A DNA stretch of 64,000 bases, from positions 3,227,001 through 3,291,000 of the forward strand of contig NZ_AP017655.1 in assembly GCF_002355855.1 (NCBI RefSeq), given 5' to 3'. The stretch's first letter is position 1. Each line of letters starts with the position of its first letter. Shown here in pieces: positions 2,783 through 18,095 of the stretch. The stretch is from Sphingobium cloacae (lineage in GTDB: Bacteria > Pseudomonadota > Alphaproteobacteria > Sphingomonadales > Sphingomonadaceae). The notes beneath the pieces are model-generated. The model was not told the origin of the DNA, searched no databases, and was given only the letters and a program-made list of their open reading frames with translations. The translations under genes and the position numbers were made by a program.

Positions 2783-4428
2783 GTGATCTTGCCGCCTTTC
2801 CTGAGATCCCCGCCTTTTCCTTCCATCGCGCCCTGCGTCGCGGCGGTCAGCGCGCCCTTGCCCGAGGGCGGACCGGAAGAAGCCGTTTCCGACGCCCTTC
2901 TCGACAGCATCGCCGCCGCCCGGGTCGGAGGCGATTTCTGGGGCCACCATGTCCGGGGCGTGAAGCTGGTCGTGCAGGCGGGCATTGCGATCCCGCCCGA
3001 AAGATTGAGCGGCCTGGAGGCGGGGCAAGCGGTGGTCATGGGCGGCGCGCCGTCGGTGGAACTGGCCCCTTATGCCCGGGAATTGCCCGGACCTTGCGAT
3101 CCCTGGGCGCTGGTGGAGGAAGCCGAGGCGGTTCAAGCCCGCGCGGATGATGATGTGGCGATTGTCGCGGTCCTGCTGGGCGTGCCCGTGCTCGGCCCTG
3201 ATTTCCAGCCTATCGATCCGCGGCATCTGAAGGAAGTCGCCCGCAACCGGCTATCGCAAGCCTGCTATCGCGACTGCTTTACCGGCGAGGAGGCGGATAT
3301 CGGCCAGGCCGTGCGCCAGCTGGCGGAGTGGCGCGCGCTTTTCAGCGCGAACCGGGGCATCAGCGCCGCGAGCGGCATGGCATGGTGGAAGCGCGATGTC
3401 ATGCGGATATTCCTGTGGGACGGTTTGCGATCTCCTCCCTTTGTGAAGGCGCGGCAGGGGCTGGATCGGGCGTTGCGGGAAAAAGGGGCGCTCGCCGTCT
3501 GGCCGTCCCGCGTGCCGGCTTCGACAGCCGATGCGGCGGCGGAGCAGGGGACGCCGCTGATACGGGTCGAGGATGGCTTCCTCCGCTCGCGGGGACTGGG
3601 GGCGGCGCTGCATCCGCCCGGTTCGATCGTGGCGGATCATAGTGGCATCTATTATGATGCCCGTGTCGGCAGCGATCTTGAGACGATCCTTGCGACCCAT
3701 GATTTTCCAGCGGAGCTGGTGGAACGGGCGGGACGGCTCCGGTCGCGGATTTGCGCCGCCGGGTCACGAAATATGGCGCGGGCCAGGGCGCGATGATAGC
3801 CTTGCCCAAGGGCAGGCGGACGGTGCTCGCGGTCGGCCAGGTGGACGACGACCTGTCGGTCCATCTGGGCGGGGCGGGCGTCGCCGGCAATCTCGATTTC
3901 CTGAAGCGCGTCCGTCAGGCCGAGCCCGACGCGTGGATCGTCTATCGTCCCCATCCCGATGTCCGGGCGGGGCACAGGGCCGGTCATCTGAGCGACGCCA
4001 CCGTGCTCGAGCATGCCGACAGCATCGACAGCGGCTCGCCGCTCATGCAACTGGTGCAATGCGTCGATGAAGTGCATGTGCTCTCGTCCCTGACGGGGTT
4101 CGAGGCGTTGATGCGGGGCAGGCCGGTGACCGTGCATGGCATGCCCTTCTATGCAGGATGGGGGCTGACGCGTGATCTGGCCGCGCCCAATGGCCGTCGC
4201 GGGCGGCGGTTGGGCATAGATCAGCTTGTCGCGGGCGCCCTCATTCTCTATCCACATTATGTCGATCCAGTTACACGCCTGCCTTGCGGTCCCGAAATCA
4301 TGGTGGACCGGCTGGCGGATGGATCGACGCCGTCTGTGAGCTGGCTCATCAGATTGCGGGTGTTGCAGGGGAAGCTACGTCGATTGATGACTTTATCCGC
4401 AGAGTTGCTTCATGGCCGCCCAGCCTAG
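2783..4428 (+). pseudogene. kpsC: KpsC-type capsule Kdo transferase, split by a frameshift
   Basis: KpsC adds beta-Kdo residues to lyso-phosphatidylglycerol, building the linker of ABC-exported capsules. Two overlapping frames together make one KpsC. The first (GTG at 2783 to stop at 3796) holds a shortened first module and then RVEDGFLRSRGLG and HSGIYYDARVGSDLE. The second (through 4428) continues with KYGAGQGAMIALPKG, VGQVDDDLSV, VYRPHPDV, SSLTGFEALMRG and FYAGWGLTRD. Homology switches frame at GGG 3761-3763, where one extra G would restore AAGVTKYGAG. This is either a real one-base deletion or a sequencing error. The 3' end overlaps kpsS by 17 bases. KpsC is normally required for this capsule class, so the status of this gene decides whether the locus works. 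Confidence 0.85.
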
Positions 4429-6820: not shown

Positions 6821-7647
6821 CCGCGTCCCGGCGTCGCAATCAGCGCCCGGCCCGCGCTCGAGGCATGAAGCGTCTCGCCTGCTTCGAGTATCCAGCACTC
6901 GCCGCTTTTCCATGGCGTGCCGGACAGGTCGCCGGTGCCCTCCAGCGGCAGGAACCAGAAAGCGCCCGTGCCGTTCAGGGTGATCCGCTCCCCGGCCCGG
7001 AAGGCCATATGACGCAGGCCGAACGGCGCGTCCTGCGCCTCCAGCAATTCTCGGTTCTCTTCGGCGGCAACACGTGGCACCGGCAGGCCATAGCGTTCCA
7101 GCCGGGCGCAGGCGAGCGCCTCTTCGACATGAAGCGGACGATCCCGGCCATAATCGTAAAGGCGATAGGTGATGTCGGCGTTGCGCTGAATCTCGACCAG
7201 CAGAATATCCGCGCCGATGGCATGGACGGTGCCCGCCGGGACCATGTAGAAATCCCCCGGCGAAACCGGTCGCCAGTCGATCAGCTCTTCCAGGGCTTCG
7301 CCGGCAACGGCGGCGCGGACATCGGCTTGCGTCACGGTTTCGGGAAAACCCAGGCCGATCGTCGCGCCGGGCTTGCAATCGAGAATGAACCACGCCTCGT
7401 CCTTGCCATGGGCATGGCCTGCGCGCCGCGCGGCGGCGTCATCGGGATGGACCTGAATGGACAGCCGCTCGCTCGTCAGGATATATTTGATGAGCAGGGC
7501 CTGATGATCGGCGGGTGCGCCCTCGAAGATCACTTCACCCACGCGGCCATCGCGCAAATTCCCCAGCCAGCCGGGAATGCAGTCCCTGCCCCATGGCTTC
7601 GTGACGGGACGGGGAAGAAGTTGATGCATCAATTCTGCCGGGTGCAT
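6817..7647 (-). CDS. manA: Mannose-6-phosphate isomerase, class I (cupin)
   Basis: A 276-residue type I phosphomannose isomerase interconverting fructose-6-P and mannose-6-P. The start region (LLPRPVTKPWGRD), the zinc-ligand segment IQVHPDDAAARRAGHAHGKDEAWF and the later YMVPAGTVHAIG are all present. The methionine at 7647 begins the conserved part, and the ORF extension to 7731 is not conserved. It is short relative to the E. coli enzyme (about 390) but matches the compact bacterial form. It is convergent with the guanylyltransferase, and the two together supply mannose-P intermediates to the locus. Confidence 0.9.
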   Translation of the reverse strand: MHPAELMHQLLPRPVTKPWGRDCIPGWLGNLRDGRVGEVIFEGAPADHQALLIKYILTSERLSIQVHPDDAAARRAGHAHGKDEAWFILDCKPGATIGLGFPETVTQADVRAAVAGEALEELIDWRPVSPGDFYMVPAGTVHAIGADILLVEIQRNADITYRLYDYGRDRPLHVEEALACARLERYGLPVPRVAAEENRELLEAQDAPFGLRHMAFRAGERITLNGTGAFWFLPLEGTGDLSGTPWKSGECWILEAGETLHASSAGRALIATPGRG

Positions 7648-7890
7648 GGCGCCAGTATAGCGCGCAATGATGAGCAAGCGGTTAAGTGATAAGCCCACGG
7701 CGCGCAATGGGCGTGAAGAGGGATGCTGCACGGAGTGCGGCTGGCAGGCCTGTGCGTTTTTGAAGGAATGATGCGGTTCCTATGCATGCATACAGTCGGG
7801 CGCATTGGTCCGAGGATGTCCAGAGATCGCGATGAAGATGTGCGATTCGAACCTTCGGTTTTTGCGCGCCTTGGTCTAGGGGGGATGGCG

Positions 7891-8727
7891 ATGTCCGACG
7901 ATCTTTTTCCGCGAGCGCTGGACCCGGCATTGCGTTTCCTGGCGCAGGGCGCGAGCGCGCGCCTCTACGTGCTGGGACAGGGAGAGGTGGTGAAGCTTTT
8001 CCACCCGGCGGTGTCGGACGAGATGATCGAACGCGAGGCTCACGCCTCCCGTCTGGCGGCGGAACTGGGGATGCCCGCCATCGCGACGGTGCGCCGGATC
8101 ACCATGGAGGGCACACGTGGGCTGGTTTATCCCCGCGTGGCGGGTGTCACGCTGCTCAAGGCCATGCGGCGACGGCCATGGTCGTCAGGCGCAATGATGC
8201 CCGCCATGGCGCGCTTGCAGGCGCGCATGCACCAAAGCCCGGAAATAGAAGGGGTGCGGTCCCTCAAGGACGTGCTGCGAACCGACATTCTCCACGGTCC
8301 CGCATCCGATGTTCTCAAGGAATGGGCGCTGGTGCGGTTGAAGACGATGCCGGACGGCCGACGGTTATTGCATGGCGACTTCCATGTGGAAAATATCATG
8401 GTTGCGGAGGGCGGCTTCAAGGTCATCGACTGGTCCAAGGCCGCCTTGGGCGACCCGGCGGCGGATGCCGCGCGGACGGAAATGCTGATGCGGTTCGGAG
8501 CCGGGCCGCAAGACAGGCTGACTGTCCTGGCACGCGAATGGGCAACGCGGCGTTGGCGGGCAGCCTATCTGCGGGAAAGCGGAATGGCGGCGGAACGGCT
8601 GGATTCCTGGCGCGCCGTGGTGGCGGTAGCGTGGCTGCGCGCGCGAAAGCCCGTCCGAGAACGGGCTTTCAGGGAATATTTGCATGATGCGCTAAAAGAA
8701 TCGAATTATGATCGGGCATCTGCATAG
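7891..8727 (+). CDS. APH-fold phosphotransferase family protein
   Basis: A 278-residue kinase-like protein of the aminoglycoside phosphotransferase/choline kinase fold. The catalytic loop HGDFHVENIM (about residue 162) and the metal-binding VIDWSKAALGDPAAD (about 177) are intact, and ARLYVLGQGEVVKLF near residue 25 holds the ATP-binding lysine. ATG 7891 is favoured by an AGGGGGG ribosome site six bases upstream. The substrate is unknown, and the position inside a capsule locus suggests a sugar or lipid rather than an antibiotic. The last 15 or so codons are AT-rich and run through a strong hairpin at 8645-8670, then overlap the convergent neighbour by 22 bases, so the 3' end may have been replaced. 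Confidence 0.8.
   Translation: MSDDLFPRALDPALRFLAQGASARLYVLGQGEVVKLFHPAVSDEMIEREAHASRLAAELGMPAIATVRRITMEGTRGLVYPRVAGVTLLKAMRRRPWSSGAMMPAMARLQARMHQSPEIEGVRSLKDVLRTDILHGPASDVLKEWALVRLKTMPDGRRLLHGDFHVENIMVAEGGFKVIDWSKAALGDPAADAARTEMLMRFGAGPQDRLTVLAREWATRRWRAAYLRESGMAAERLDSWRAVVAVAWLRARKPVRERAFREYLHDALKESNYDRASA
8645..8670. terminator. Perfect 10-bp hairpin inside the 3' end of the APH gene
   Basis: GAAAGCCCGT pairs exactly with ACGGGCTTTC around a 6-base loop. The A- and T-flanked GC stem looks like a bidirectional terminator. It lies in the coding end of the APH-family gene and also just beyond the 3' end of the convergent gene at 8706-9878, for which it could serve as terminator. Confidence 0.45.
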
Positions 8728-9878
8728 TTGAGTTGATGCCCGACCATTTGCTTCATCTTTTCTATATCCATAAGCATCGCATTCTTCTCGGCTCTTTCTT
8801 CTGCATGTTGCCTAAGCGTATACGGCTGAAAGGACGAAAAATATGTATTATATATACCTTCAAATCTATTAAGCTTAAAGTTGGATAGATGATCTATAGA
8901 TGTCACATAATGAGTAGGTACATTGTAAGAAATGAAAGAAACCCATTTTTTGTCATAGAACGATGGCTCTATTTTCCAAAGAAAGTCCTCTTTCTGATCG
9001 TTACCATCCATTTTTTCAAAGAAAAGAACGCCCCTCCTGTGTCGAAGATGGAAATTATCTTTCAATCTTTTAATCAGATAAATGGGTTTTTCAGGATATG
9101 GTTTTTCACAAACGCAACTATCACGACCGAGCGCGAAGAATTTTCCTTTAATTTCATGATTATAAGATCGCCGAACTGCCGATATCCCAAAGTTCCCAGG
9201 ATTGACTTTGTCAAAGCCACCGCTCAGGCATCCCGCGGAAATATTGTATATTTTTGCACCATGTTCCGTAGCAAGAGATTTGATCTTCTGTTGATATCGT
9301 AGATATTCGGTCGGCGGAAGAACCTCTAAAACATGGCTGGCATTTCCCGCGTGGCTATTAGGGAAAGCATCAAATCCATCTAGGCCGGCAATGAATATTT
9401 TTTTTATGCCAAGATAAACAGCTAGCGGGATAGAAAGGTCTGTAATAACAGATCCACCAAAATATACTGTTTCTAAATTTTTATCAAATTCAGAAACGTT
9501 AAACCATGATTTGCTAAAAGGCATGTGATACTTAATACTAAAATCAAATTTTTCATGATCAATATCTTTGAAGAGGTGACTTTTCTCTCTCAAGACATGT
9601 TCTAGAGCAAAAATTTTCTTTGCTTTTTTGAAGTTATCTTTGTCGACTCTTTGTCTGTCTACAATACATAGAATGTCAGGACGAAATTCGGTTTTATATA
9701 TAAAATTAACTCCAATACAGAGTTCATTTTGCAGCTGTTCGGGATCTAGTTTATTAATGCTAGGTCCCATTCCTAAAATAAAACAGCGATCTGTATCCAA
9801 TATTTTCTTTTTCAAATCAGCCGAAAATTTGAATCGATCGATCCTGTTCTTTCTTTCATCTTGTATAGAAATAGACAT
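8706..9878 (-). CDS. GT42/DUF115-like protein with possible AbfB-type C-terminus
   Basis: A 390-residue AT-rich gene product. The N-terminal half has CFILGMGPSINKLDPEQL (about residue 33), CIGVNFIY and later KKIFIAGLDGFDAF with NSHAG. A glycine-rich GxGPS loop followed by an IG(V/L)N strand is shared by GT42 sialyltransferases and DUF115/Maf proteins, which transfer nonulosonic acids. The C-terminal part (about 265-350; FHLRHRRGVLFFE, DFLWKIEPS, VSFISYNVPTHYVT) resembles the AbfB/CBM42 beta-trefoil pattern, which is my own pattern match. Codon use is clearly AT-richer than the flanks, indicating horizontal transfer. It is divergent in composition from, but near, the neuA and NeuB-fusion genes, so a role as a nonulosonate transferase is a reasonable inference. 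Confidence 0.6.
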   Translation of the reverse strand: MSISIQDERKNRIDRFKFSADLKKKILDTDRCFILGMGPSINKLDPEQLQNELCIGVNFIYKTEFRPDILCIVDRQRVDKDNFKKAKKIFALEHVLREKSHLFKDIDHEKFDFSIKYHMPFSKSWFNVSEFDKNLETVYFGGSVITDLSIPLAVYLGIKKIFIAGLDGFDAFPNSHAGNASHVLEVLPPTEYLRYQQKIKSLATEHGAKIYNISAGCLSGGFDKVNPGNFGISAVRRSYNHEIKGKFFALGRDSCVCEKPYPEKPIYLIKRLKDNFHLRHRRGVLFFEKMDGNDQKEDFLWKIEPSFYDKKWVSFISYNVPTHYVTSIDHLSNFKLNRFEGIYNTYFSSFQPYTLRQHAEERAEKNAMLMDIEKMKQMVGHQLNYADARS

Positions 9879-9893
9879 GGAAAATCCGTTTAT

Positions 9894-11909
9894 TCATTCA
9901 GATGTCGGGGAAGCAAACCGCTTTTCCCAAGCGGAACGGTTCGCCATTTCATTTCTGGATTGGTGATAAAGGGCTGTCAGTTCCTCATATCTCTCCATAA
10001 GCCTTTTGACATTCCGTTCGAATTCCGTCCGGTTGGCAAAATAGCGATCCCGATCCATTTCGCATATATAGCCAAGCCCCGACGCGGGGTCGAACGTGAT
10101 CGTGCGCTTGCGGCGATAGGAATCCTGCATGATGGCGCGGACTTCCAGCGGGAAGACGACGGCCTTGCTGTAAAGCATTTTCCGGGGCAGCCTATGTCCG
10201 TTGTGGCTCCATTTCCGCATCAGCCTGGCCCAGCGGCTCCCGTGCCGGTGGGGGGAATGGGGCGTCGTTTCATCATGGCTGAAATGGATGGGCCGGATTT
10301 TCTCGTTCACCGTCAATGCGCCGATCTCCTTCCGACGCGCGCTCATGTCGAGATTGCTCTCCCAGAAATCGGGGCCCCGCATGACGTCGGCGATCGCCAT
10401 GTTGATCGCCTGCGCGGTTTCATAATGGAAACTCTTGTTATAGCGATGGAAGAACGATCCCAGCATCTTGCGCATGTCGTCCTTGCTGATGGCGAGGTCG
10501 TCGAAGGTCAGATGCTGGACGATATGGTTGCGGACATCGAGATACAGCGTCAGCGGCGATTGCTTGACGGAGAAATCGTCCTGATGGCTGACGATGCCGG
10601 GGGCGGTCAGGATAGAGAAGTCATTGGCCAGCGAAAAATAGATGTCGTCCCCTCTGACGAAGAAGGGGAAGGCCCATGTCTGCACGGCCCTGACCGGGAA
10701 GCAGAAATACCACCACCCGCCATAGCGGTTCTTCATGGAAAAGGGTTGCGCCAGCGCCATGGACACGACTTCGTGAAAAAGCCGCAGGTCCCGCCGGTTG
10801 TCGATGGGGCGGCAATGCCGGTCGAATATGGCGCTGTTTTCCCACATCTGCCATTTATGGGCTTCGGTTATCATCGCGCCGCTGATGGCCAGCCGTGGAT
10901 TGGCGGAATAGCGAAGGATGGAAATGGTGCGGCGCAGGGATTCCGGAAAGAAGCTGGCGTCGTCATCCATGAAGAGGGCATGAGTGACATTCTCGTGCTG
11001 CATGACTTCGAGCAGGCCCCGCGAAAAGCCGCCCGCGCCACCATAATTCGGGTTCTTGATGACCCGGCCTTTGGAAAAACCGATGTTGTCGGTCTCCCCG
11101 CCATTGTCGATCACCAGCAGGCTGAAATGGTCGCGCAGGTCGGGATTGCGATCAAAATAGGCCTGAAGCCGGTTGGATGTGCTCTGAACCGCCGCATCCC
11201 GCTTGAAGGTGGTGATGACGCCCGTCAGGTTGACGGCGTTGCGTTCCGGGCCCGTCACGACATAATCGAGAGACTGGATCGTCAAATCTTCGATGGCGAT
11301 GAAGCGGGCATAGATCAATCCATCGAACGGAATGTCCGGCAGTTCGATGATCTGTGTCGCCCCGTCTGCGTCCAGGATCATGTGAACCAGATTTTCCCAA
11401 CTCTTGTGATGCCTGGCGAGCATCACCTCCAGGACGCATTTCCCCTGAGCCTTGAGATGGAGTTCGACGCGATTCTCCGGTTGGAGATCGAAAAACCGTG
11501 CCGGGAAGACATTATAATAGCTATCGAACCGTATTTCCGATCTCTTCAGGGCATAGAAATGGCCGCTCTGGCTATCGTAACCCGCATGGCCATCGCGATG
11601 GAAAAACAGATCCGCCTCTGAATTGACGGTGGGATCGGGTGTGATCAGTCTTTGAACGACAGTGCGGTTTCTGGGGACGGAGAAATTTTCTTCCGGTTCC
11701 GAAACGATATCTTGTATCAAGTTCTGCTCCGCCGATGAATATCTGAGGCGGGGACGGGCTTTAACGGGTTGGTGGCGGCTTGGGTATCGATTTCTCATAT
11801 TGTTTTTGGCTAATCCTCGCGAAGCTATCATGCTCAATGATGATAGAGATTGTTGCGATCCCGTTCCGATGGAGCCTCTTGCGCAACATAAGGATAGATG
11901 TTTAACCAT
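9894..11909 (-). CDS. GlfT2-like (GT2) galactofuranosyltransferase
   Basis: A protein of up to 671 residues with the GlfT2 layout: an N-terminal beta-sandwich-like region, then a GT-A domain beginning LTGVITTFKRD (about residue 245). Next come NPNYGGAGGFSRG, the metal-binding FMDDDASFF (about 340), GGWWYFCFP and FVRGDDIYFS. These are hallmarks of GlfT2-type polymerising galactofuranosyltransferases. Methionines at 11831 and 11798 are possible later starts, and the first 37 residues are not conserved-looking. Its start region faces neuA divergently. With glf in the same locus, a galactofuranose donor is likely. Confidence 0.82.
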   Translation of the reverse strand: MVKHLSLCCARGSIGTGSQQSLSSLSMIASRGLAKNNMRNRYPSRHQPVKARPRLRYSSAEQNLIQDIVSEPEENFSVPRNRTVVQRLITPDPTVNSEADLFFHRDGHAGYDSQSGHFYALKRSEIRFDSYYNVFPARFFDLQPENRVELHLKAQGKCVLEVMLARHHKSWENLVHMILDADGATQIIELPDIPFDGLIYARFIAIEDLTIQSLDYVVTGPERNAVNLTGVITTFKRDAAVQSTSNRLQAYFDRNPDLRDHFSLLVIDNGGETDNIGFSKGRVIKNPNYGGAGGFSRGLLEVMQHENVTHALFMDDDASFFPESLRRTISILRYSANPRLAISGAMITEAHKWQMWENSAIFDRHCRPIDNRRDLRLFHEVVSMALAQPFSMKNRYGGWWYFCFPVRAVQTWAFPFFVRGDDIYFSLANDFSILTAPGIVSHQDDFSVKQSPLTLYLDVRNHIVQHLTFDDLAISKDDMRKMLGSFFHRYNKSFHYETAQAINMAIADVMRGPDFWESNLDMSARRKEIGALTVNEKIRPIHFSHDETTPHSPHRHGSRWARLMRKWSHNGHRLPRKMLYSKAVVFPLEVRAIMQDSYRRKRTITFDPASGLGYICEMDRDRYFANRTEFERNVKRLMERYEELTALYHQSRNEMANRSAWEKRFASPTSE

Positions 11910-11935
11910 CTGGGAGATTTGCCTTGGAGGGATGA

Positions 11936-12646
11936 TTGGGCTACATAGGATTTATTCCCGCACGAGCGGGCAGTGAACGTGTGGAGAACAAGAATACACG
12001 CCCGTTTGCCGGATTTGAAGGTGGCCTACTGGAACTGAAGCTGCGTCAATTAGTGAATGTATCCAGGTTGGATGAAATCATAATATCTTCAAATGATCCG
12101 ATCATTTTGGAATATGCCGAACGTTTCGCTCACGAAGTGGACGAGCGCATAGTGCCGCTTGAACGGCCTGACGAGTTTGGCAACAGCGCTACCTCTATGG
12201 AACGCTTTATTGCAGATTATATAGCGTATTTGAGAAGCAGCGGGATCATCATGTGGACCCATGTAACTCATCCGTTCGTGACAAGTCGCATCTATAACGA
12301 AGCTATCGATGCCTATGAGCGAGCCATTCTGGAAGGGTGCGATAGTCTGGTCGGTGCTACTAGGATACAAAAATTCCTATGGTCGAATGGTAAGCCGTTT
12401 AACTATGATAATTCGACAGAGAAGTGGCCCCGCAGTCAAGATTTGCCTGTCCTTTGGGAAATAAATCACGCCATTTATATGATGCCATTTGAGGTAATGC
12501 AGGTTTCCGGAGACAGAATCACCAAAAATTCTTTCTTCATGCAAATGGAAGAGGGGGTCGCGATGGATATAGATTGGGAAGGTCAATTTCAGTTGATGGA
12601 AGAAATTGCCTTGGCAAGGGTCGCTCGCGGGAAATCATTAATATAA
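11936..12646 (+). CDS. neuA: CMP-nonulosonic acid synthetase (NeuA-like cytidylyltransferase)
   Basis: A 236-residue cytidylyltransferase. The N-terminal signature FIPARAGSERVENKNTRPF is the nucleotide-binding loop of CMP-sialate/CMP-Kdo synthetases, and EIIISSNDP and WTHVTHPFVTS follow in the expected order. It activates a nonulosonic acid with CTP for transfer into the polysaccharide. The start is a TTG at 11936 directly after an in-frame stop and five bases downstream of a strong GGAGG, so no ATG is needed. The gene is AT-richer than the host. It lies upstream of the phosphatase and NeuB fusion genes on the same strand. Confidence 0.88.
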   Translation: MGYIGFIPARAGSERVENKNTRPFAGFEGGLLELKLRQLVNVSRLDEIIISSNDPIILEYAERFAHEVDERIVPLERPDEFGNSATSMERFIADYIAYLRSSGIIMWTHVTHPFVTSRIYNEAIDAYERAILEGCDSLVGATRIQKFLWSNGKPFNYDNSTEKWPRSQDLPVLWEINHAIYMMPFEVMQVSGDRITKNSFFMQMEEGVAMDIDWEGQFQLMEEIALARVARGKSLI

Positions 12647-12872
12647 TATTATTTATTGATACGAAAGATTATATTTTGTTTTTGCGTTCAGCGGACGAAA
12701 TTCTATAATCTAAATATTTGAGCCAGTATTGGTAGGCGGTGCTGCATTACTGCCTCGGGATTGTAATAAGTGGAAGTGAGTGTGCTGAGGTTTGGAGTCG
12801 TAATATTTTCATGGAGCGCCAGAATACGATTGAAGATGTATTTTCGTGTAATATGAACCGAAAAGAACCATT

Positions 12873-13577
12873 ATGAATATCGACAATCTACTCAGGGAAT
12901 GCCTGACAACAATAGACTCCATGATGCCGCAGATCATGGAGCGGCGTTTCCAGATTCAATATAAACCGGATGGAAGTCCCGTTACCGACGCGGATCGATT
13001 CATCGAAGACCGTCTTCATGCCTTGCTGCAAACGCGCCTGCCCGGGCTTCATTTCGTGGGCGAGGAAAGTTTCGATTTCCAGTCAGGTGGGCAGAGCGGC
13101 TATTTCGCCTTGCTGGACCCCATAGACGGCACGGAGAATTTTTGTTCGGGCCTCAAGGAATGGGGTGTATCGCTTGGCATATGGAAGGATGGCATCCATC
13201 AAGGCAGCCTGCTTATGATGCCGGAACTGGGCGAACATCTGATGACCGGCGATTCCACGTCTGCGTTACGGTCGCGCATCACCGGCTTTTCCTCATCCTA
13301 CCATGATGATATCGCCGTCGGTATCCGGGATGCGATTGAGTATCGCGTTACTGGTTGTGCTGTCTATAATATCTATAATGTAGTTCGAGGAAGCTTCGCG
13401 CGTTTCGTCAATCCGAAAGGCGCTTATGCGTGGGATTTGTTGCCAGGCGTGATGCTGGCGTTGGAACATGGTTGTTTGGTTAGGGTGAATGATGCAGACT
13501 ATCACGGGCAATTTCTTGAGCCTGATCGAAAATATCGCGTCGACATACGCAACCGACACAATCTACATCCTGGGTAA
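12873..13577 (+). CDS. Inositol monophosphatase/CysQ-family phosphatase
   Basis: A 234-residue member of the Mg-dependent IMPase superfamily. The metal sites are present: FVGEES (about residue 65), LLDPIDGTENF (about 85) and GAYAWDLLPG (about 190). These enzymes remove phosphate from sugar phosphates, inositol phosphates or 3'-phosphoadenosine phosphates. Position between neuA and the NeuB fusion suggests it dephosphorylates a nonulosonate intermediate. The last 89 bases overlap the next gene in another frame. The 226 bases before it, after neuA, are AT-rich and show no gene. Confidence 0.82.
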   Translation: MNIDNLLRECLTTIDSMMPQIMERRFQIQYKPDGSPVTDADRFIEDRLHALLQTRLPGLHFVGEESFDFQSGGQSGYFALLDPIDGTENFCSGLKEWGVSLGIWKDGIHQGSLLMMPELGEHLMTGDSTSALRSRITGFSSSYHDDIAVGIRDAIEYRVTGCAVYNIYNVVRGSFARFVNPKGAYAWDLLPGVMLALEHGCLVRVNDADYHGQFLEPDRKYRVDIRNRHNLHPG

Positions 13578-15015
13578 GGGGCCGTCGGTCGACCTTGTCG
13601 ATCCCCAAATCTATGCCAATTCATTGGTCATCGGCTTGAACGACGCTGAGCGTATCGCGCCTGCCGACATCACCATATTCCATGGAAGCTGGGTTAAGGG
13701 GGGGCTTCGGGAATCGGGCTATCGTTCACGTCTCTATCTGACGGCGCAGCCGGGATTCAAGGCGGGCGACAAGGCCGTCGTGGAAGCGCCCTTGGTTCAT
13801 TTGAATCAGGAAACCTCAGAACTGCTGATGCAGCGGATGATGACCGACAGTCTGGAGATTGAAGAGGTTCTCTTCGTAACGGCGCTCAAACTGTCGCGCA
13901 TGATCGCGGGAATCCGCGGGCGGTCGCAGACCGTCTATATGCTTGGTTTTGATTTCAGCGCCGAAAAGGGTCATAGCCGGGCGCTTGTCCATGACTATGC
14001 GGACGATAGTGAAGATGAACGCCTGCTGAAGATCTCGGCGCAGGAATTTTATTTCCTCAACGCACTATATGCGCTGCGTGACAGTCCGCTGGACATCCGT
14101 CACGTCGGTTATCGTTCCTTCAGCGGGATCACGCCGGAGGAGTTGAACGGTCACGCCGGAGCTCGGTTCGCTACACCGGAATCCCGAGTGGATGTCGTCG
14201 CGGAATTGACGACCAATCATTTTGGCGATCGTTTTCGGCTGGAAAAGATGATCCGCGCCAGCAAGGCGGCAGGTGCCAATTACATTAAGTTGCAAAAGCG
14301 CGACGTTGAGAGCTTCTACAGCCGAGAGCAGCTATCCTCGCCCTATAATTCTCCATTTGGCAGGACGTTTGGTGACTATCGACATCAGCTTGAACTAAGC
14401 CAGGAAGACTTCCTGTTCGTGGATGCGCTGTGTCGCGATTTGTCCATGGGCTGGTTCGCATCCGTTCTGGATGAACCCTCCTTCCATGTCATGGTGGATA
14501 TCGGAGTTCCGATGGTCAAACTGCCATCCACCATTTCAGAACATAAGAACTATCTGAAGTTCGTGGCGGAAAATTACCGGGGTTCAGTAGTGCTTTCTAC
14601 GGGCATGACAGATGAAAGCTATGAACGCTTCGTGACGGAGGCTTTCGTCGAATGCGAAAAAATCTATTTGCTGCAATGCAATTCAGCCTATCCTACGCCG
14701 CTTGAACATTGCAATATCGGTGTGGTCCGTCATTATCATGGCCTGTCGCGGCAAAATCCTCGCATCGTTCCCGGTTATTCCAGCCATGACCACGGATGGA
14801 AAGCTTCGGCTCTTGCTGTCGCGGCCGGCGCGCGGATGCTGGAAAAGCATGTCAAGCTTGGAAACACGGAATGGGCCCATTTCGATGCCGTGGCGGTGGA
14901 CCTGACTACTTCCGATTTTCGGGAGTATGTCGATCATATTCGGGAAGCCGAACTCATCATGGGTTCGGACCAGAAAAGGGTGAACGAAAGTGAGCACCAT
15001 AAATATCGGAAATAG
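13489..15015 (+). CDS. Fusion: GT42/DUF115-like domain plus NeuB condensing domain
   Basis: A 508-residue two-part protein. Residues about 1-220 hold DTIYILGKGPSVDLVD, VIGLNDAERI and TVYMLGFDFSAEKGHS, a GT42/DUF115 (Maf)-like pattern. Residues about 228-508 are a NeuB-type (beta/alpha)8 synthase: VAELTTNHFGDRFRLEKMI, GANYIKLQKRDVESFY, MVKLPSTISEHKNYL, LSTGMTDES, YSSHDHG and ARMLEKHVKLG, the last two carrying the histidines that bind the metal in NeuB. Such domains condense PEP with a hexosamine or hexose phosphate. The protein stops at VNESEHHKYRK, where the C-terminal SAF domain would start, so SAF is absent. The first methionine lies inside the phosphatase gene (89-base overlap). No later ATG precedes the GPS motif. 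Confidence 0.83.
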   Translation: MMQTITGNFLSLIENIASTYATDTIYILGKGPSVDLVDPQIYANSLVIGLNDAERIAPADITIFHGSWVKGGLRESGYRSRLYLTAQPGFKAGDKAVVEAPLVHLNQETSELLMQRMMTDSLEIEEVLFVTALKLSRMIAGIRGRSQTVYMLGFDFSAEKGHSRALVHDYADDSEDERLLKISAQEFYFLNALYALRDSPLDIRHVGYRSFSGITPEELNGHAGARFATPESRVDVVAELTTNHFGDRFRLEKMIRASKAAGANYIKLQKRDVESFYSREQLSSPYNSPFGRTFGDYRHQLELSQEDFLFVDALCRDLSMGWFASVLDEPSFHVMVDIGVPMVKLPSTISEHKNYLKFVAENYRGSVVLSTGMTDESYERFVTEAFVECEKIYLLQCNSAYPTPLEHCNIGVVRHYHGLSRQNPRIVPGYSSHDHGWKASALAVAAGARMLEKHVKLGNTEWAHFDAVAVDLTTSDFREYVDHIREAELIMGSDQKRVNESEHHKYRK

Positions 15016-15113
15016 ATACGGTTATGCGGTTGGTCATGGTGCTTGGGATGAGTGTTGACGAGTAAACGGATGTGACGGCTAACTGAATGTGGCATTCTTG
15101 ATCCACGTTCCAC

Positions 15114-15169
15114 ATCCCTTGCGCTTCTGCTGCGTCATTTTGGGCTGACGCGGCATAAGCGCAAGGGAT
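15114..15169. repeat. Long inverted repeat downstream of the NeuB fusion
   Basis: ATCCCTTGCGCTT at 15114-15126 pairs exactly with AAGCGCAAGGGAT at 15157-15169, and an inner GCGTCA/TGACGC pair extends the structure. It lies 99 bases after the NeuB-fusion stop and before the IS5 remnant. It lacks a T-run. It could be a transcript end or a relic of another mobile element. Confidence 0.5.
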
Positions 15170-15265
15170 GGGAGGGTATCCCGGTGGAGGTGGACTCTAG
15201 GGTCTGTGGGGATTCATCGTGAGTTGATGATGGTGGCTGCGAGGTGGATGATGGCCTTGAAGCTA

Positions 15266-16317
15266 GAGCATCGAGCGTTTAATCGTACCCATAGCCTGCG
15301 GCATTGAAGTAGTTGCGACATTCCTCGGTCGGGTAGAGGTCGCAGATGCTGCCGACCGCGCGCCAGAGGTCATCGATCGTCCTTGCCCCGATGCGCCTGA
15401 GGTGCGCTTTGAGTTTTGAAAAGGCCATCTCGATCGGGTTGAGATTAGGGCTGTATGGCGGGAGGAAGAGGAACCAAGCGCCGCGCTGCTTGAGGATCAT
15501 CTTGGCCTTTTCGCTCTTGTGGCTCGGCAAGTTGTCGAGGATCACGACGTCCCCCGGATCGAGCGTCGGCGCGAGCTGGGTTTCCACGTAGATTTCGAAG
15601 ATCTCTTTGGTCATCGGCCGGTCGATGATCCACGGAGCGGTCAGGCCGTCGCACCGTAATCCTGCTATGAAGGTCTGCGTCTTCCAATGACCGAACGGGA
15701 CGCGCCCCTTCAGGCGCTGGCCATGACGCACCCGGCCCCGTAGGCGCGTCATTTTCGTCGTGGTCGCCGTCTCGTCGATAAAGACCAGCCGGTGCGTCTG
15801 CTCCCGCATGCGCGGCTGGCGATGCAGCCGCCATCGCCGTCGAGCCTCGCAGACATCATCGCGTCCGCACTCCGATGCCAGCAGCTGTTTTTTTATATCG
15901 GAAGCCCGCTCCGAGAAGGGCCCGCGACAACGAGGCGGGATGCGCACGCATCTTTGTTTCAGCCTCAAGCTTGGCAGCAAGCTCGGGCATGCTGATGTCC
16001 GATTGCGCCTCCACCCAGCGGATCAGCATCGCCATATACGGCGCAAGCTTTCCTGCGCCCGGCGGGCGCCCCTGGCGTGCCGGAGATGCCGAACCAGTCT
16101 TCGCCACACGCTGCACAAGCTTGATCGCGCAACTTACGCTCACACCAAACCGCCGCGCCGCATCACGACGCGAATGTCCCGCCGCCACATGGTCCGATAT
16201 GCGATCCCGCAAGTCGCTCGAAAATGCTTTCCCCATGATCCACCTCCGACAAAGATGAATCATATTTTCCGGCTTCTGGGAATCCCTGGCCCGATTCCTA
16301 TTTCAGGCCCGATGCTC
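15266..16317 (-). mobile_element. IS630-family element A
   Basis: A 1052-base element bounded by TA dinucleotides at 15264-15265 and 16318-16319, as expected for IS630 target duplication. The ends are short inverted repeats: GAGCATCGAGC on the left and the complement of GAGCATCGGGC on the right. It carries one transposase in two overlapping frames. Confidence 0.85.
15279..16236 (-). CDS. IS630-family transposase in two frames (frameshift-made)
   Basis: The first frame (16236 to 15856) encodes the helix-turn-helix half beginning [13 protein letters not shown]. The second (15980 to 15279) encodes the DDE catalytic half with [27 protein letters not shown] and [13 protein letters not shown], carrying the D, D and E. 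Homology passes from YKK in the first frame to QLLASE in the second at a run of seven A on the coding strand (15888-15894). Slippage on that run would make the complete enzyme, as in other IS630 elements. The sequence looks otherwise intact. Confidence 0.85.
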
Positions 16318-16319
16318 TA

Positions 16320-17457
16320 GTGCAATGACGCAGACGGGAGATTCACAAATCGTCTAGGACATGCGACTCTCCCGTCATGGCCCAGACCGTCAACATCCTC
16401 TTGAACGCCGCCGACCGTGCTCGGCTTGAACAAATCGTCGGCGACCGCAACTGCCCGCTCAAGCATGTGCTGCGCGCCAGGATCGTGCTGCTCTCCAGCG
16501 ACCGCTTGCCGGTGCTCGAAGTGGCCCGCCGCGCCGGCGTCAGCCGACCTGCGGTCTGGCGCTGGCAACAGCGCTTCGCTGAGGAAGGCGTCGATGGTCT
16601 TCTCCGCGACAAGACGCGCAAGCCCGGTACGGCGCCGATCGCCGCGCCCGTCGTCGCACGGATCGTTGCGTTGACCTGCTCCGAACCGCCCGGTGCCGTG
16701 ACCCATTGGACCGGCCGCGCAATGGCCAAAGCCTTCGGCGTCTCGCTCCGAACCGTCCAGCGCATCTGGCAGGTCCATCACCTCCAACCCCACCGTCTGC
16801 GAACCTTCAAGAGATCGAGCGACCCCGCCTTCGCCGCCAAGGTCGAAGACATCGTCGGTCTCTACATGGCCCCGCCGGCTCACGCCGTCGTCATCTCGAT
16901 CGACGAGAAGAGCCAGATCCAGGCCCTCGACCGAACCCAACCCGGTCTGCCGTTGAAGCCGGGCAAATGCGGAACAATGACGCACGACTACAAACGCAAT
17001 GGCACGACCACCCTGTTCGCCGCGCTCGACGTCCTCCACGGCACAGTCGTCGGTCGCTGCATGCCCAAGCACAGGCACCAGGAGTTCATCAAGTTCCTCA
17101 ACGCCGTCGAGCGCGCCGTTCCTGCCGGCAAGGTGATCCACGCCGTCCTCGACAACTACGCCACCCACAAGCATCCGAAGGTCCTGGAGTGGCTCGCCGA
17201 TCATCCACGCTGGGTGTTCCATTTCACCCCGACCTCGGGCTCATGGCTCAACGCCGTCGAGAACTTCTTCTCGGCGCTCACCCGAAGGGTCATCCGGCGC
17301 GGCGTCTTCACCTCCGTCGTCGACCTCCAGGACACCATTAGCGCTTACATCCGAAAGCAGAACGCCGACCCTAAGCCCTTCGTCTGGACCAAGCCGGCCG
17401 AGACCATTCTCGCCAAACTCAGGCGGCTGCCTGTACCAACCGACTGAGTCAGTGCAC
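16320..17457 (+). mobile_element. IS630-family element B
   Basis: A 1138-base element bounded by TA at 16318-16319 (shared with element A) and 17458-17459. Terminal inverted repeats are GTGCAATGACGCAG on the left and the complement of GTGCACTGACTCAG on the right. It carries one intact transposase gene and appears complete. Confidence 0.88.
16377..17447 (+). CDS. IS630-family transposase (single frame)
   Basis: A 356-residue transposase. The N-terminal helix-turn-helix is VLEVARRAGVSRPAVWRWQQRF, and a second DNA-binding segment is AKAFGVSLRTVQRIW. The catalytic triad lies in VVISIDEKSQIQAL, AVLDNYATHKHPK and SWLNAVENFFSAL. The gene is uninterrupted and lies between the inverted repeats of its element, so it may be active. 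Confidence 0.93.
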   Translation: MAQTVNILLNAADRARLEQIVGDRNCPLKHVLRARIVLLSSDRLPVLEVARRAGVSRPAVWRWQQRFAEEGVDGLLRDKTRKPGTAPIAAPVVARIVALTCSEPPGAVTHWTGRAMAKAFGVSLRTVQRIWQVHHLQPHRLRTFKRSSDPAFAAKVEDIVGLYMAPPAHAVVISIDEKSQIQALDRTQPGLPLKPGKCGTMTHDYKRNGTTTLFAALDVLHGTVVGRCMPKHRHQEFIKFLNAVERAVPAGKVIHAVLDNYATHKHPKVLEWLADHPRWVFHFTPTSGSWLNAVENFFSALTRRVIRRGVFTSVVDLQDTISAYIRKQNADPKPFVWTKPAETILAKLRRLPVPTD

Positions 17458-18095
17458 TAGGATAGGTTTTGCAGGCACGCATGGCGATGCGCTTGAACTC
17501 CTTGAGCTTGCAGAAGAAGGTCTCGATCAGGTGCCGCCACGTATAGATTACGGCGTCGATCCTGAATTTTGCGCGCGAGCCGGATGTTGCGAGATGATGA
17601 TGCAGGGCTGCGCTCGTTGAGTTCGGCGACGGGTGCATTGATGTCGAACGCCTTGTCGGCGAAGCGCATCGGTGAGCGCGAGAATTTTGGTCGTCATGCC
17701 GTCTTTGGAACGACCAATGGCCTGGCCCTGAGTCTCCCTTTTGCGCCCTGCCCATGGCGGTGAACCTTCACGATCGTGGCATCGATCATTGCGTATTCCA
17801 TGTCCGGTTTGGCTGATAGCGCATCGGGATATGCGTTTGAAAACATCCTCTTCACGCAATCGCGAAAGCGCCGGAAGGCCGTGCTCCAGTTACCGAACCG
17901 CTCCGGCAGGGCCCATGCGCGCGATCCATAGAACTGCCTCCATGAACAGTCCGTTGTTCCTACCGTTCCGCCTGGGATCAGACAGCTTAACCAGGCAATG
18001 CGGCTCGATCTTCGTCCACTGGGGTCTGTCAGAATGTCGCGATCCATCCCGAGCTTGAATCACATTCCATCCCACCTCGCGAATCCCCACAGGCC

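Follow-up and report, generated by a model that had tools for sequence, protein, structure and literature searches.

In NeuB synthases, contact with the N-acetyl group is made by the SAF domain. Phosphorylation and dephosphorylation steps are used by Bacteroides thetaiotaomicron, Prymnesium parvum and humans, whereas many bacteria do without them, according to the excerpted account in PMC6200933, which also notes that P. parvum itself yielded no homologue of the phosphatase. The DNA analysed here, a 64,000-nt stretch of Sphingobium cloacae (contig NZ_AP017655.1, forward-strand positions 3,227,001 to 3,291,000; hereafter the window), carries a gene in which a domain of the GT42/Maf/MptE fold is joined to a NeuB barrel without a SAF domain. 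On sequence grounds, and with confidence about evenly balanced, this fusion is proposed to supply the synthase in a capsule cassette of three enzymes, whose product would be a nonulosonic acid activated with cytidine monophosphate (CMP) and made by a phosphorylated route. The cassette recurs in Proteobacteria and Actinobacteria, and no description of it or of the fusion was found in the open-access literature searched.

The fusion is a single open reading frame of 508 amino acids with an ATG start codon and is the sole NeuB-family match in the genome of the window. As the preliminary description of this DNA had it, the frame links a GxGPS-type domain to a NeuB domain with the expected catalytic residues. 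The Pfam NeuB model (PF03102) matches residues 254–496 over its whole length (E 1.7e-42), and a Foldseek search returns the PseI structure 8h2c (E 8.5e-14) and the NeuB structure 1xuu as the best matches in the Protein Data Bank (PDB). Scores against the NCBIfam NeuB and PseI models are 124.9 bits (cut-off 399.65) and 103.5 bits (cut-off 340.25), respectively. When aligned with Neisseria meningitidis NeuB, residues Glu25, Lys53 and Lys129 correspond to Glu239, Lys267 and Lys344 of the fusion, and Tyr186, His215 and His236 to Tyr401, His433 and His454. These six, which we take to be the catalytic, phosphoenolpyruvate (PEP)-binding and metal-binding residues, are invariant across a 34-row alignment (A1) composed of the window, two loci from an order-level search (L003 and L004), 30 of the 44 loci from a genome scan and the E. 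coli plasmid locus L076. Rows in A1 were required to contain a GKG motif; L005, L036, L040, L044, L051, L052, L057, L071, L073 and L074 were unparsed, and L032, L033, L059, L063 and L070 were omitted as near copies. The AlphaFold model of the full-length protein has a mean predicted local distance difference test score (pLDDT) of 84.6 and a predicted template-modelling score (pTM) of 0.78.

No SAF match was found in the fusion protein by a Pfam scan whose library detected SAF in 5 of 7 other NeuBs of the window's order. The frame indeed stops where SAF would begin: in all 49 copies (the window, L005, the 44 genome-scan loci and the enterobacterial L076, L078 and L079, with the unannotated E. 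coli record L077 uncounted), the C-terminus consists of EHHKY followed by 0–19 residues. An insertion-sequence block starts right after the fusion stop, as might be expected if the SAF domain had been cut off by the insertion, and two genes joined by error could likewise produce such a frame. Both forms of artefact are refuted, and we give them practically no credence, as the same end occurs in every copy, including that of Sphingobium faniae (L032), which has an identical C-terminal end without the adjoining block; the 44 loci all span query residues 13–506, which disposes of the sequencing error considered earlier. In a 60-row tree of NeuB domains, all 34 rows from fusions group together as a single clade with support of 100/100. 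Because of the shared C-terminal end and this single clade, the fusion is a genuine joined gene, neither an artefact nor a truncation. The nearest non-fusion row in the tree is L006, joined at 99/94 on a long branch that makes its placement unsure.

The search for the fusion in other genomes, as had been suggested, was productive, since every locus returned by the scan covers both parts. Carriers belong to the Alpha-, Beta- and Gammaproteobacteria and to the Actinobacteria (Nesterenkonia, Demequina and Garicola), together with single metagenome-assembled genomes labelled Deinococcales and cyanobacterium (labels as deposited). Within the window's order, the full fusion is present in 4 of 396 genomes (matches spanning residues 10–506 or more), with copies 94% identical in S. 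faniae and 88% identical in S. wenxiniae. Close relatives of one plasmid copy were detected by megablast in 4 of 5426 E. coli genomes, three on plasmids and one chromosomal; copies that have diverged further, an unannotated E. coli record among them, escape this count. The copy at L071 has an open frame of just 224 residues and appears broken. Enterobacterial copies are annotated publicly as N-acetylneuraminate synthase family protein. We read the fusion locus as a mobile capsule cassette that has probably spread horizontally.

Two further enzyme genes accompany the fusion (Table 1). Most loci were examined over about 8 kb per side, and less at contig ends, so neighbour counts are lower bounds. 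By profile search, an inositol-monophosphatase gene is present in 40 of the 49 fusion loci. It directly adjoins the fusion in 34 loci by a script rule and in L036, L040, L044 and L052 by coordinates, while in L056 and L068 it is present without adjoining. A cytidylyltransferase is present in 38 of the 49. The cassette cytidylyltransferases fall into three clusters, and PseF is the best model, with scores below its cut-off, for that of the window and five others tested. At the level of family assignments, synthase, phosphatase and CMP-synthetase are encoded together at fusion loci. The order cytidylyltransferase, phosphatase, fusion is found in E. coli ET350 and on an Enterobacter plasmid, within capsule loci with rhamnose genes. 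The window locus is itself a Kps-type capsule locus, with relatives of KpsS, KpsM and KpsE (each below its NCBIfam cut-off), a polysaccharide export protein and UDP-galactopyranose mutase.

Table 1. Coordinates of the fusion gene, its parts and neighbouring features in the window.
Feature	Coordinates	Strand	Evidence
Fusion gene, 508 aa: GT42/Maf/MptE-fold domain and SAF-less NeuB barrel	13489..15015	+	Open reading frame, Pfam, AlphaFold, ends of homologues
N-terminal domain, residues 1-220	13489..14148	+	AF2 model, VIA alignment, profile similarity to MptE-like domains encoded nearby
NeuB synthase part, residues 231-508, C-terminus EHHKYRK	14179..15012	+	Pfam NeuB, Foldseek, PDB sequence alignment
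Inositol-monophosphatase-family gene, proposed sugar phosphatase	12873..13577	+	PF00459 E 8.4e-22, sequence, conserved neighbour
Cytidylyltransferase, PseF-like, proposed CMP-nonulosonate synthetase	11936..12646	+	PF02348 E 6.3e-9; TIGR03584 PseF 49.6 bits, below cut-off
MptE-like (DUF115) protein, candidate separate transferase	8706..9878	-	PF01973 E 6.1e-13; C-terminal AbfB-like match E 1.5e-4
Insertion-sequence block directly after fusion stop	15017..18092	.	DDE_3 domains in two transposase genes; no such block in S. faniae

The phosphatase and fusion genes share 89 nt (13489–13577) out of frame, with the phosphatase stop lying within the Gly29-Lys30 codons of the fusion, and the register of this overlap is identical in 22 of 36 measurable loci. 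In S. faniae, a different cytidylyltransferase (L032 6518–7384) occupies the place of window positions 11788–12872, as if the gene had been exchanged. Elsewhere in the window, a capsule-synthesis gene with a short PF05159 match (2783–3793) is followed by an overlapping frame (3751–4428) that resembles its continuation, possibly through a frameshift.

In the proposed pathway, the C-terminal NeuB barrel would join PEP to a hexose 6-phosphate, most likely mannose-6-phosphate, yielding the 9-phosphate of ketodeoxynonulosonic acid (Kdn). The inositol-monophosphatase-family enzyme would take off the phosphate, the cytidylyltransferase would form the CMP sugar, and a distinct transferase encoded in the capsule locus would add the sugar to the polymer. 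The N-terminal domain would bind a nucleotide or CMP-sugar and thereby regulate the synthase or hold its product. A phosphorylated substrate is suggested because the phosphatase adjoins the synthase. A PF02350 epimerase was not found in 14 of 33 carrier genomes, in a search that left N-acylglucosamine 2-epimerase (AGE) outside; this and the phosphatase next to the synthase favour Kdn from mannose-6-phosphate, which is the leading guess for product and substrate at about even odds. The 33 genomes comprise those of 29 genome-scan loci and four from an order-level search; L058 and 14 further genome-scan loci fall outside the sample, in which G393 and G188 stand in for L032 and L033.

Several observations weigh against this pathway. 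The PF02350 epimerase is present in 19 of the 33 carrier genomes, the window's own included, and AGE is another source of N-acetylmannosamine (ManNAc). PseC scores over its cut-off in three of the 33, all of them belonging to the 14 in which PF02350 was not found; in these three, a pseudaminic-type precursor is possible. The model for type I mannose-6-phosphate isomerase matched in nine of the 33 genomes and not in that of the window, although the window itself holds a GMP_PMI gene that exceeds its cut-off and a manA-like gene with a weak score of 49.3 bits (cut-off 116.2). The phosphatase was not found in nine loci, all from Nesterenkonia or Garicola, of which L060 and L063 lie at a contig end with less than 430 nt upstream. 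As genome completeness is not given, gene absences in carrier genomes may also be gaps. A search for NanE in the 14 genomes without PF02350 and in the window genome gave, among the 14, one strong match, one borderline match and three weak matches below cut-off.

Another ulosonate could be the product, either N-acetylneuraminic acid (Neu5Ac)-9-phosphate, if ManNAc-6-phosphate were the substrate, or an octulosonate, if a pentose phosphate were. The 19 genomes with the epimerase would suit this, as would the three cytidylyltransferase clusters and the differing S. faniae enzyme beside a 94% identical fusion. Against it stand the 14 genomes without the epimerase, the absence from the fusion of the domain that contacts the N-acetyl group, and the higher scores of the cytidylyltransferases tested on PseF than on KdsB models. 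We regard another ulosonate as a minority prospect, though one to be taken seriously, and retain Kdn as the working product.

The N-terminal domain is predicted to adopt the GT42/Maf/MptE fold in diverged form. The AlphaFold2 (AF2) model of residues 1–220 has a mean pLDDT of 88.7 and a pTM of 0.87, with one low-confidence loop (pLDDT <50 at residues 161–168), and it aligns with Maf, MptE, GT42 and GT29 folds (VIA alignment), bearing out the fold previously suspected. In the Pfam scan, no family, including MptE-like/DUF115 (PF01973), matched residues 1–232, while the C-terminal part matched the NeuB model in full. A remote link to MptE-like domains is given by hhalign (probability 94.4%, E 8.5e-8, 135 columns). 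The motif at residues 29–33 is GKGPS in 36 of 45 readable copies and GKG-other-S in the other nine, with four further copies unparsed by the script; Pro32 is variable in other copies. Residues conserved in the 34 rows of A1 include Gly29, Lys30, Gly31, Asn51, Asp52, Asp60, Trp68, Tyr83, Arg116, Glu125, Asp155, Gln185 and His205. Every full copy of the domain seen is fused to NeuB, and a search of 385 genomes of the window's class gave no convincing instance that lacks NeuB. Because the domain is strongly conserved, it has some function.

That function might be sugar transfer. The preliminary description proposed synthesis and transfer in one polypeptide, and of this the fusion itself and its transferase-like fold have held up, whereas transfer is possible but not favoured, because the lid histidine is not conserved and separate candidate transferases occur at some loci. 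An active nonulosonic-acid transferase of sialyltransferase-type fold, with a catalytic site changed from that of GT42, would agree with the predicted fold, the many residues conserved in rows script-selected for the GKG motif, and the constant pairing with NeuB. The general base of CstII is His188 in the excerpted text of PMC4202792, a position that is probably equivalent to that of the lid histidine. Among the fusion rows, 23 of 34 have any histidine in the lid loop and the best column holds only five, a count from sequence alignment in which another residue could serve; all seven neighbouring MptE-like domains aligned keep the histidine. We regard an active transferase as a minority prospect. 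The same holds for the wider proposal that one polypeptide performs the first and last steps, with the phosphatase and cytidylyltransferase acting between and the sugar ending on the capsule. Most carrier genomes have no further candidate transferase by PF07388 or PF01973, as this proposal would have it. Where separate candidates do exist, most lie near the cassette: polysialyltransferase-family (PF07388) genes occur in 3 of the 33 carrier genomes, all within the cassette's locus, and seven of eight MptE-like (PF01973) matches, in six of seven genomes, lie around it. The eighth (G188) is on a different contig, in a genome whose cassette is at a contig end. These separate genes, where present, are the better candidates for transfer. 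In the window, the MptE-like protein at 8706–9878 weakly resembles AbfB beyond its MptE-like domain, at 22.3 bits against a cut-off of 22.8, and is perhaps a transferase recognising a furanose polymer.

Transfer of phosphate or pyrophosphate from adenosine triphosphate (ATP), as by MptE or thiamin pyrophosphokinase, would draw on the same fold, but the proposed pathway appears to have no step requiring pyrophosphoryl transfer, and we consider this role improbable. We lean instead towards binding of a nucleotide or CMP-sugar for regulation or channelling. The 28 invariant N-terminal columns of a 23-row alignment (A5, GKG-selected rows) would also suit an active enzyme and to that extent weigh against a binding role. 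An analogy is offered by human GNE, which is inhibited at an allosteric site by CMP-Neu5Ac, according to the excerpted text of PMC13214540. The fusion is a test case for whether a sialyltransferase-type fold has been reused to control, or complete, the pathway of its partner. A sialic-acid-like sugar made via a phosphorylated route that many bacteria do not use (excerpted account, PMC6200933) is the probable product of the cassette, and annotators could drop the plain N-acetylneuraminate synthase family label for fusion genes.

Among known systems, NeuB/PseI synthases share the barrel fold and catalytic residues with the fusion but combine PF03102 with SAF (PF08666), whereas the fusion has an extra N-terminal domain instead of SAF and scores below the NCBIfam cut-offs. 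The NeuBs of L006 and L015 likewise lack SAF but are unfused, as is the 290-aa Leptospira protein of PDB 6ncs, SAF-less by chain length only. The nearest SAF-less NeuB is that of L085, where a cytidylyltransferase, an RraA-like protein and a histidine phosphatase are encoded with it (7350–10306); this locus also pairs synthase with phosphatase, but the phosphatase is unrelated. Among long sphingomonad NeuB proteins (L008–L012, frames of 766–845 aa), L008 carries extra domains as well, with CBS, NeuB, SAF and a xylose-isomerase-like barrel (AP_endonuc_2), and L009–L012 are likened to it by length; its partner domains differ from that of the fusion, and SAF is retained. GT42 enzymes (Cst-I, Cst-II), Maf and MptE-like/DUF115 proteins share the predicted fold and the GxGPS-type motif with the N-terminal domain, which differs in its unconserved lid histidine and in having no Pfam match. 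The Kdn-9-phosphate pathway of B. thetaiotaomicron and P. parvum, likened here by description and not by sequence, has the same synthase, phosphatase and CMP-synthetase steps as the cassette, and no fused transferase-like domain figures in the excerpted description (PMC6200933). Unlike that pathway, the cassette employs a phosphatase of the inositol monophosphatase family.
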